DNA from: Bacteroidales bacterium
Lineage (GTDB): Bacteria; Bacteroidota; Bacteroidia; Bacteroidales; UBA932
DNA length: 64,000 nucleotides
NCBI GenBank assembly: GCA_016288055.1
Contig: JAEEXZ010000004.1
Coordinates: 1-64,000, forward strand
Reading direction: 5' to 3'
A program made the translations under genes and the position numbers. This document shows positions 14,020 through 60,165 of the stretch, piece after piece. The notes below the pieces were generated by a model that searched no databases, was not told where the DNA came from, and saw only the letters and a list, made by a program, of their open reading frames with translations. Every line of letters starts with the position of its first letter. The first letter of the stretch is position 1.

Positions 14020-14940
14020 TTACCTTTTTCGAAAGCCGTAGTCCTTGGAGTTGATGGCTTGCCGGATAATGTATTCGGAGATGTAGAGTATCCTGGCCAG
14101 CAGATGGGTTGGAATGTGATACTTGTCATCGGCCTGCACGGCAAGACGACATTTCTCTTCCGGGGTCAGGTGATAGAGGCGTTTTTGAGGGAACAGCACG
14201 TCACACAGGCGTGACAGGACATCCTTCACCTCCGGTTCGGACCATTCCATCGTTTCGCCGGTGGATTCGGAAATGCGGACGAAAGATTCGTAGTCTTTCA
14301 CCATGGCGGTCATGAAGTCTTTGACCGTGGGAAACAAGTCAAGGATTCGCCTCACATCAACATAGTTGGACGGAAGTATTCCCAGGACGGGATGGACTAC
14401 CCATTCTTCCGGCAGGGGAATGCGCGAACCGATTCTTCGCTCCAACCATCTGACCTTCATGTCTTTAACTCTTGTACCGGTAATCACCTCCGCAAGTTGA
14501 TTGTAAACCAGATAGCCGGTTCCCCACATGTGGCCACAGGGCGTGCATACCCCCTTCTCATACTTGTTGCGCATGAGGTAAATAATGTGACGGCGAAGGG
14601 AATGGTCGTCTTCGATGGGAATTAGTTTGAATCCATAATCTGGCGGCAAGGGCGGATATCCGTCCGCTTTCAGCTTTTTATTGATTCTCTTGACCAGATA
14701 ATAATAACAATCAAGACACTGCTGACCGGTTCCGGTCAACAGCATGTGAACATGGTTCGGCATGAGTTCGAACGAACAAACCTTCACGCCGAATTTAAGT
14801 GTCATTAGAGCAATAGTCGCCATACCAAAGGCATATTGCTCTGCAGTGTGGAATAGTTTTCCTTCCGACCACCCGTTTGTACACAGGTGGTAGTCCCCTA
14901 AGGGCATGGAGCGGTGCTCCTCAATTTGTTTAATATTCAT
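14020..14940 (-). mobile_element. RAYT-like (REP-associated tyrosine transposase, Y1/HUH superfamily) with C-terminal HTH-like extension
   Basis: CDS of 306 aa from ATG at 14940. HUH motif in SFELMPNHVHMLLTG, plus YLVKRINKKLKADG and HIIYLMRNKYEKGV...WGTGYLVYN typical of Y1_Tnp proteins. C-terminal HLLARILYISEYIIRQAI looks helix-turn-helix-like. Flanked by BIME-like palindromes. Confidence 0.8.
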
Positions 14941-15044
14941 TGGGCACAAAAAAGTGCTCTTCTTCTTCTGCGCCTACTCACAACAAATATGTGAATATAA
15001 ATCCGTCTATCAAAGACTTTTGATAAAAAGTTGGTCCTCCATAT

Positions 15045-46599: not shown

Positions 46600-46808
46600 C
46601 CTACCAGGTCCAAGGGTTGTCACCAACCCGTGGACCAGGTCCAGGGCATTTTTGGACCAGGTCACAAAATAGGGGTTGGACCAGGTCCAGGGAGTATGCC
46701 CCAGAACACCCTGGAAGGCACATGTGGTGGACCAGGTCCAAGGGGTAAAATGTGACCTAGTCCAAATGTTGCCAAGACCTCGTCCAAATTAGCGTTGGAC
46801 CAGGTCCA
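46600..46808. repeat. Array 1: eight spaced copies of TGGACCAGGTCCA-like motif
   Basis: Motif copies start at 46600, 46631, 46653, 46677, 46728, 46752, 46774, 46796. AGGT/ACC(T/A) cores fall at 46606, 46637, 46659, 46680, 46734, 46755, 46777, 46799. Confidence 0.88.
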
Positions 46809-46834: not shown

Positions 46835-46869
46835 CATTTTCCGGGAGCCATGGGGGCTCCTGGAAAATG
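46835..46869. repeat. Strong 15-bp inverted repeat/hairpin
   Basis: CATTTTCCGGGAGCC-ATGGG-GGCTCCTGGAAAATG, 14/15 paired. Confidence 0.8.
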
Positions 46870-46912
46870 AGTGCCGTTACCTCCTAGTTAGGGGACATAA
46901 TGGAGAAAGCAG

Positions 46913-47014
46913 ATGCAAGCATCTACGCACTTTTCCCGCAAAAGTGCGTAAGTGGTTGCATTGCGATGTAAGCATCTACACGCTTTCCCAGGAAAAACGC
47001 GTAGGTGGTTGCAT
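46913..47014. repeat. Two tandem 49-nt imperfect palindromes (period 53)
   Basis: 46913-46961 ATGCAAGCATCTACGCACTTTTCCCGCAAAAGTGCGTAAGTGGTTGCAT and 46966-47014 ATGTAAGCATCTACACGCTTTCCCAGGAAAAACGCGTAGGTGGTTGCAT. Confidence 0.85.
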
Positions 47015-59369: not shown

Positions 59370-59397
59370 GCATACTATCTTCGCATCACCATAACTG

Positions 59398-59425
59398 GAG
59401 CGGCCATGTGGTCGCTCTTTTTTTT
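59398..59425 (+). terminator. Rho-independent terminator of rny
   Basis: GAGCGGCC-ATGT-GGTCGCTC followed by T8. Confidence 0.8.
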
Positions 59426-59670
59426 GACTGGGAAGGGACGGACGCGAAGGACGTTGGGGCGCCGGTGGGGACGGTCAGTGAGGCGCGAGACGCATCCTGC
59501 GCGTGTTGGTCACGTTTGCCGTGCCGGCAAATCGTGCCCTCGGCAGGAAACTTACGCCGAAGCCGTATCCCAGGGGGAACGTCATCCCACGCGCGGAGGG
59601 ATGGTGGGTGCACACATTGATTCGGGGATGGCCGTGCCCCCGGCTGACGCCGGAAGAAGGTTGGACCGTG

Positions 59671-59877
59671 CGCGAAGGTCGTTGGGGTGTGAAGACGCTG
59701 AGGGGAAGGTGGCAGGAACAAATGGGGAAGGTGTCATTTTAGGGCCGGGACCTTCACCACGGAAATGACACTGGAGAGCGGTGAGGGGCCAGATCAGTGG
59801 GGAAGGTCCCCCCAACGAAATGAGACCTTCCCCAAAAACGCAAGGGACCTTCACCAAACATACCGGGGACCTTCACC
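59671..59877. repeat. Array 3: eight spaced copies of (G)GGGAAGGT / ACCTTC(A/C)CC motif
   Basis: AGGT/ACCT cores at 59676(+), 59707(+), 59729(+), 59750(-), 59804(+), 59825(-), 59847(-), 59869(-). Confidence 0.88.
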
Positions 59878-59916
59878 AGAGGTAACGAAGATGGGCCGGT
59901 AGCAGGCAGTGATGTT

Positions 59917-60073
59917 GCAGGTGGGAGGATGGAACGCTGCAGGTGGGCAAAAACCTTTGCCACCTGCGGCGCCCGAATGCGCCAGTGGCCATTTTGCGTT
60001 GCAGGTGGTGCACAAAAATGCCCACCTGCGACACTTTGTTGTTCCACCTGCGGCAGATTGTTGCGCCACCTGC
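59917..60073. repeat. Array 2: seven spaced copies of GCAGGTGG / CCACCTGC
   Basis: AGGT/ACCT cores at 59919(+), 59941(+), 59962(-), 60003(+), 60024(-), 60046(-), 60068(-). All seven 8-mers are exact. Confidence 0.92.
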
Positions 60074-60080
60074 GGCACTG

Positions 60081-60165
60081 GAGGGAACCGGTGCTAGTCG
60101 CCGAGGAGGAGGCGGGTGCTAGGCGACGAGGAGGGAACCGGGGCTAGTCGCCGAAGAGGAGGCGG
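60081..60165. repeat. 35-bp direct repeat, 50 bp apart, duplicating the 3' end of the 5'-nucleotidase gene
   Basis: GAGGGAACCGGTGCTAGTCGCCGAGGAGGAGGCGG (60081-60115) and GAGGGAACCGGGGCTAGTCGCCGAAGAGGAGGCGG (60131-60165). Confidence 0.9.

Follow-up and report, generated by a model that had tools for sequence, protein, structure and literature searches.

The window analysed here comprises 64,000 nt (positions 1 to 64,000 of contig JAEEXZ010000004.1) from a Bacteroidales bacterium, the genome of which is represented by a 2.05-Mb MAG (GCA_016288055.1) of 90 contigs that is 87.5% complete. The convergent genes for RNase Y and a 5'-nucleotidase are separated in this window by a long intergenic gap that is filled by three modules, these being a repeat designated module B and two arrays of short, phased sites (arrays 3 and 2), and a further array (array 1) is found elsewhere in the window (Table 1). 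In two congeners the orthologous convergent gap is far shorter, at about 4 bp in G019 and about 14 bp in G001, compared to 774 bp here; this comparison defined neither an exact junction nor a target duplication. The DNA beside array 1 also contains a hairpin that resembles a terminator and a palindromic repeat of two units (GATGCAAGCATCTACGCACTTTT...), at 46835-46869 and 46912-46996.

Table 1. Features of the arrays and of the RNase Y/5'-nucleotidase gap. Sites are given as motif centres (the A of AGGT) with their orientation.
Feature	Position	Strand	Description	Site centres
Array 1	46631..46808	.	24/51 type, word TGGACCAGGTCCA, 7 in-phase sites	46637+, 46659+, 46683-, 46734+, 46758-, 46780-, 46802-
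Array 1 centre	46690..46727	.	38 nt between inner sites; one instance of the conserved, directional centre	
Intergenic gap, convergent RNase Y/5'-nucleotidase	59370..60143	.	774 bp; contains module B, array 3 and array 2	
Module B	59434..59692	+	adjacent repeat of ~260 bp, three genome copies	
Array 3	59701..59878	.	24/51 type, word TGGGGAAGGTCCC	59707+, 59729+, 59753-, 59804+, 59828-, 59850-, 59872-
Array 3 centre	59760..59797	.	38 nt	
Array 2	59913..60077	.	24/38 type, word CGCCGCAGGTGGG	59919+, 59941+, 59965-, 60003+, 60027-, 60049-, 60071-
Array 2 centre	59972..59996	.	25 nt	

Layout of the arrays and of module B

An earlier note on this DNA had described three arrays that carry different words on a common spacing and orientation, and this was borne out both by alignment of the sites, which are 13-bp words, and by motif-free scans, which only require the sites of an array to agree with each other. 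With a seven-copy motif-free model the three arrays scored 42, 43 and 39 (best score 17 in the shuffled window), and a stricter six-copy scan returned exactly these three arrays in the window. The shuffled control that the note had named yielded no comparable arrays (0 in 396,703 shuffled bases), and the layout stands. The steps from site to site are 22 and 24 bp in all three arrays. Relative to their midpoints (46708.5 and 59778.5), the sites of arrays 1 and 3 are found at -71.5+, -49.5+, -25.5-, +25.5+, +49.5-, +71.5- and +93.5-, and array 2 repeats this layout around 59984 with the central distance changed from 51 to 38 bp, in agreement with the 13-bp shorter centre that had been reported for it.

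Some details of the earlier description had to be revised. The identical first interval of 31 bp reported for arrays 1 and 3 falls outside the layout of both. The first copy proposed for array 3 (59671-59687) instead forms the end of module B, which carries a 17-bp direct repeat, 228 bp apart, with its near-identical upstream member at 59443-59459, while the copy of array 1 at 46606 is a genuine motif match that is out of phase and is absent from the nearest relative (L002). Array 2, which had been considered to have no clear first copy, does carry a single outer + site, but elements differ in how many outer sites they have, so nothing is missing from it.

Module B has three copies in the genome, one in the window and two on other contigs (C52:67772-68032 and C78:3795-4054), which are 94% conserved and each of which neighbours arrays of the array-3 and array-2 types. 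The linear orders at these copies, B-A3-A2, A3-A2-B and A2-B-A3, are cyclic permutations of one order. Module B was also considered as a structured RNA, and this was rejected as its folding is no better than that of shuffles (z -0.44).

Dispersal of the arrays and their association with RAYT genes

Across genomes the arrays follow one layout: a number of + sites at 22-bp steps, a unit of a + and a - site 24 bp apart (23 bp in one subfamily), then the centre (51 or 38 bp), a second such unit, and a number of - sites at 22-bp steps, with the count of outer sites varying between elements. The spacers of the units usually carry about five consecutive A or T beside the unit's outer site. Whatever the word, the sequence of the centre is conserved and directional, with an information content of 28.4 bits in the 51 type (8.2 in shuffles) and 19.4 bits in the 38 type (4.7 in shuffles). 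The suggestion, made from the arrays of the window, that the geometry is conserved while the motif varies holds far beyond it. The survey of related Bacteroidales that had been proposed as a test returned many arrays of the same geometry. The 22-bp step also agrees with the idea that a step of about two helical turns would fit side-by-side protein binding.

About 22 further arrays were found in the same MAG beyond the window, of which about 13 are of the array-2 type, four of the array-1 type and three of the array-3 type, and a fourth word, CGTCGCAGGTC, occurs at two places. Several of them sit, as is usual for repeats, at the ends of contigs. The array-2 DNA sequence was found, among 61 genomes, in its own genome only, and the array-2 half-core pattern was absent from the searched collection of genome contigs. 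Elsewhere, a genome (G156) whose RAYT gene is accompanied by TGGGGAAGG arrays carries about ten such arrays across several contigs, while a query with its TGGGGAAGG array gave no match anywhere in the congener G092, which has an array family of its own with the word TGGCGCAGG. The array copies thus follow the RAYT of their genome.

Among known elements, a search of the window against Rfam gave nothing at the gathering score, and only sub-threshold chance matches over the arrays. Identities of the attC/integron, tRNA or CRISPR-like kind were rejected, there being no tRNA, neither an integrase nor a cas gene among the neighbouring genes that were checked, and an unsuitable spacing and inverted core. 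An origin from plasmids, phages or viruses was rejected as well, since searches of plasmid, phage and viral contig sequences gave no match. Spread and homogenisation of a satellite-like repeat by slippage and gene conversion, without involvement of a RAYT, would account for the variable number of outer repeats and for the tandem duplications seen on two contigs of the MAG (C67 and C44), but slippage does not preserve inverted copies, the exact spacing of 22/24/51/38 and the direction of the centre where words and genomes have diverged, and we regard this explanation as scarcely probable.

Within the MAG, copies of the arrays lie beside genes for RAYT-like proteins. P0001, a 321-aa ORF with an SNHGH motif on contig C67, is enclosed on both sides by clusters of array-2-type arrays. 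P0002 (315 aa, 40% identical to P0001) is encoded on contig C11, where an array-1-type array is found 77 bp from the start of its gene; the contig itself starts within another array. For the array-3 and array-4 words no close RAYT was detected in this 87.5%-complete MAG, but in other genomes RAYT genes (at L132, L139 and L175) are flanked by TGGGGAAGG, the word of array 3, so the corresponding partner may be unassembled or lost.

Relatives of the RAYT were found in 162 of 300 congeners, and the association was followed in 42 RAYT loci. These come from MAGs of other Bacteroidales, for the most part of rumen origin, and some of the loci are near-duplicates, so that they are not fully independent. 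A free-fit search, in which the step (20-24), the unit (19-29) and the centre (28-61) were all left free, found an adjacent array above the highest score of matched shuffles (77) at 36 of the 42 loci, with 28 scoring at least 95, and recovered the same geometry; eight loci exceed the shuffles only slightly, and the other six have no array above them. The 22-bp step was returned at 29 of these 36 loci, and the sum of unit and centre was 75 or 61-63 at 32, this sum being the invariant because a one-base shift of the word trades unit against centre. When the geometry was fixed, 41 arrays were found in the 133.5 kb lying within 1.2 kb of a RAYT gene compared to 8 in the 329 kb farther out, with an array within 1.2 kb at 26/42 loci and on both sides at 11/42. 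The association between arrays and RAYT genes is strong.

This bears on the possibility that the arrays are the sites of ordinary regulators or of a ParB-like protein, which stand near RAYT genes by chance. Phased double-stranded sites with A/T tracts do resemble operator, nucleoid or partition arrays, and arrays 2 and 3, lying between convergent genes, could act on chromosome structure. The adjacency to a single transposase family and the shared phylogeny with it, seen in many genomes, the dispersed intergenic copies, and the tiny gap at the orthologous place in congeners all argue against such a function, which is in our view very improbable.

A small conserved ORF of unassigned family lies beside about 27 of the clade-I RAYTs (e.g., L084:2946-3509, - strand), between the RAYT gene and the distal array.

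The RAYT-like transposase and its phylogeny

Two motifs, N67-H68-x-H70 and Y128-x-x-x-N132, are invariant over 44 proteins of the family, and from their sequence would represent the HxH motif and a single catalytic tyrosine in a Y---N context. The Pfam domain Y1_Tnp gives a weak match in P0002 and matches 18 of the 44 family members. The AlphaFold model of P0001 (pLDDT 90.1) has as its best PDB match 4er8, the E. coli RAYT bound to a REP hairpin (E 9.5e-5, probability 1.00), followed by the IS200/IS605 transposases ISDra2 and IS608 TnpA, and as modelled, the array-associated RAYT has an HUH core fold of the IS200/IS605-TnpA-REP type. Residues 243-302 of P0001 form a C-terminal helical bundle that is predicted with confidence and gives only weak matches to HTH profiles (CENP-B_N, MarR_2 and HTH_PafC); it is probably an HTH domain. 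The array-associated RAYTs are about 300-320 aa in length, with a distance of 58-60 residues from the HUH motif to the tyrosine. The MAG as a whole contains about ten Y1-type genes, and another RAYT-like ORF is present in the window itself (14020-14949, - strand; Y1_Tnp E 0.003, REP_Tyr_transpos E 0.0018), which is about 22% identical to P0001 and has no array of this geometry nearby.

In a tree of 50 RAYTs, array types were compared for 14 rows of the 51 type and 15 rows with shorter cores, and a branch with 100/99 support separates all of the former from all of the latter. The RAYT clade predicts the core length without exception, one clade having the 38 type and the other the 51 type (with P0002/L107, the array of which is truncated, labelled by hand). 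The word of array 1, TGGACC, is found in one RAYT subclade, to which P0002 belongs. Motif distance correlates with RAYT sequence distance (Mantel r 0.637, 0/2000 permutations), a correlation that is partly shared descent, as related proteins are not independent. A correlation specific to the HTH domain was rejected, the HUH core correlating equally and all domains being alike in the Mantel comparison.

Relation to known repeats and a possible mode of action

Taken together, the arrays are probably non-autonomous, REP/TIR-like repeats that are recognised and dispersed by a clade of Y1/HUH transposases of the RAYT/TIRYT type in rumen Bacteroidales, with a separate branch of these transposases for each word, and the cognate factor of the arrays in the window is likely to be a RAYT-like HUH transposase that is encoded elsewhere in the genome. 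From the computed association and co-phylogeny we infer that the arrays are bound, cut and moved by this protein. It counts against this explanation that neither a transposition event nor a cleavage site was seen in the genomes compared.

A search of the open-access literature, in which papers were compared by passages of their text, found no paper on these arrays. REPs, RAYTs, their co-evolution and the REPtron layout are established in these passages (PMC3116915, PMC6006769, PMC8266576), and the likeness of the arrays to REP/REPIN/BIME repeats and their RAYT (TnpA-REP) includes the dispersal of inverted repeats between genes, a Y1/HUH RAYT gene that is flanked by its own repeat family, and the possibility of several co-evolved RAYT/repeat pairs per genome (PMC6006769, PMC8266576, PMC3116915). 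The arrays are indeed a dispersed intergenic family with copies that flank the cognate RAYT gene. Their sequence differs, as they lack the palindrome or hairpin of 20-50 nt that bears a 5' GTAG/GT[AG]G tetranucleotide, and consist of 6-8 or more 13-bp words in a 22-bp phase, set around a fixed, inverted core with its directional centre, over about 160-200 bp.

The arrays might nevertheless be canonical REP/REPIN elements, in which the HUH domain alone recognises hairpins of single-stranded DNA, formed by each [+ 24 -] unit or by the entire core as one nested cruciform, as in E. coli TnpA-REP. The RAYT fold of the protein is in keeping with this, as are the two [+ -] units, which form an inverted, REPIN-like pair, and the cores, which as single-stranded DNA fold far better than shuffles (z -4.0 to -6.6). 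The fold is not the same for both core types, however: the cores of arrays 1 and 3 fold as one nested structure but that of array 2 (+ strand) as two separate hairpins, so that the nested fold or cruciform envisaged in the earlier note is possible for the 51-type core and finds only partial support as a general principle. The spacers inside the units self-pair less than expected by chance (mostly 0.12-0.18), the outer same-strand copies keep the 22-bp step though they cannot pair together, a single word is used throughout an array, which pairing alone does not require, and a common GTAG-type tetranucleotide is lacking. Canonical REP/REPIN elements are, on balance, unlikely.

The same spacing of outer copies, the word common to all copies of an array and the avoidance of pairing by the spacers favour side-by-side binding to double-stranded DNA by HTH domains. 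HUH enzymes of the TnpA-REP-like fold act on single strands according to the passages compared (PMC6006769, PMC8266576), so a combination of double-stranded loading and single-stranded cutting is the most economical model. The HTH domains would bind the 13-bp words side by side, two helical turns apart, and the two inverted units, with their A/T tracts, would bring the assembled complex onto the conserved directional centre, within which the HUH tyrosine might cut one strand. Mobilised arrays could then settle between genes and be recognised there by the cognate RAYT only, which in this proposal is why a change of word goes along with a change of protein on a constant geometry.

Iteron origins and their HUH Rep initiators likewise combine double-stranded sites in a phase of about 22 bp, a palindromic region and an HUH nuclease that nicks one strand. 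The arrays differ in being dispersed chromosomal repeats with a RAYT and no replicon, and the relation is an analogy of working, not of membership. We tentatively suggest, as a reading that is possible rather than probable, that the arrays represent a distinct kind of HUH-transposase repeat, in which a RAYT that carries an HTH domain is loaded onto double-stranded sites in phase, like an iteron-type Rep initiator, and nicks the conserved centre. In this reading the word would be exchanged as a module from branch to branch of the RAYT tree, on a rigid scaffold of 22/24/51 or 38 that is kept, and the three cyclic permutations of module B with arrays 3 and 2 would be traces of circular intermediates.

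The nearest descriptions in the compared passages concern TIRYTs, which are flanked by inverted repeats able to form families (Di Nocera 2013; PMC3733652), and RAYTs of subclass 2.1, with HTH-like C-termini and no REP-like sequences found nearby (Quentin 2018; PMC6006769). In common with the proteins studied here these are long and RAYT-like, with a C-terminal HTH-like domain (a putative one in the rumen proteins), non-REP flanking repeats that can form families, and an HUH-to-Tyr spacing of about 58-60 residues (PMC3733652, PMC6006769). As far as these passages go, they are reported with TIRs, many of them GGGGWSAS, or with no REP-like sequence, and there is no description of a phased array in which many sites carry swappable words (PMC3733652, PMC6006769). 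Terminal inverted repeats of the GGGGWSAS type found no fit among the words of the arrays (TGGACC, TGGGGAAGG, TGGCGC, CGTCGC, TGTAAA and others), and the flanking arrays are in direct or inverted orientation. The Y motif differs as well: in place of the Y---NP given for class 2 RAYTs in the passages of Quentin 2018, the array-associated proteins have an invariant N that is followed by A in most members (YIPRNA). RAYT subclass 2.6 shares the phylum (Bacteroidetes) and has atypical flanking repeats or structures without GT[AG]G, but its reported median length of 179 aa and HUH-to-Tyr distance of about 82 (PMC6006769) are far from the values found here.

If the rumen proteins belong to the large subclass 2.1, its partner would be a phased multi-site array; this would account for the purpose of the HTH domain and would connect HUH transposases with Rep-type initiators. 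With many natural pairs of RAYT and word on a single fixed scaffold, it becomes directly testable how a single-strand transposase shifts its specificity while keeping the architecture, and also how such repeats persist in compact genomes.

Short GATGCCCGGTCGGGGCCGGGCATGACG-like palindromes are present near some arrays (L002 at about 1840-1870 and 2200-2600; L004; L038), and these resemble ordinary REP-type repeats, perhaps of another RAYT.
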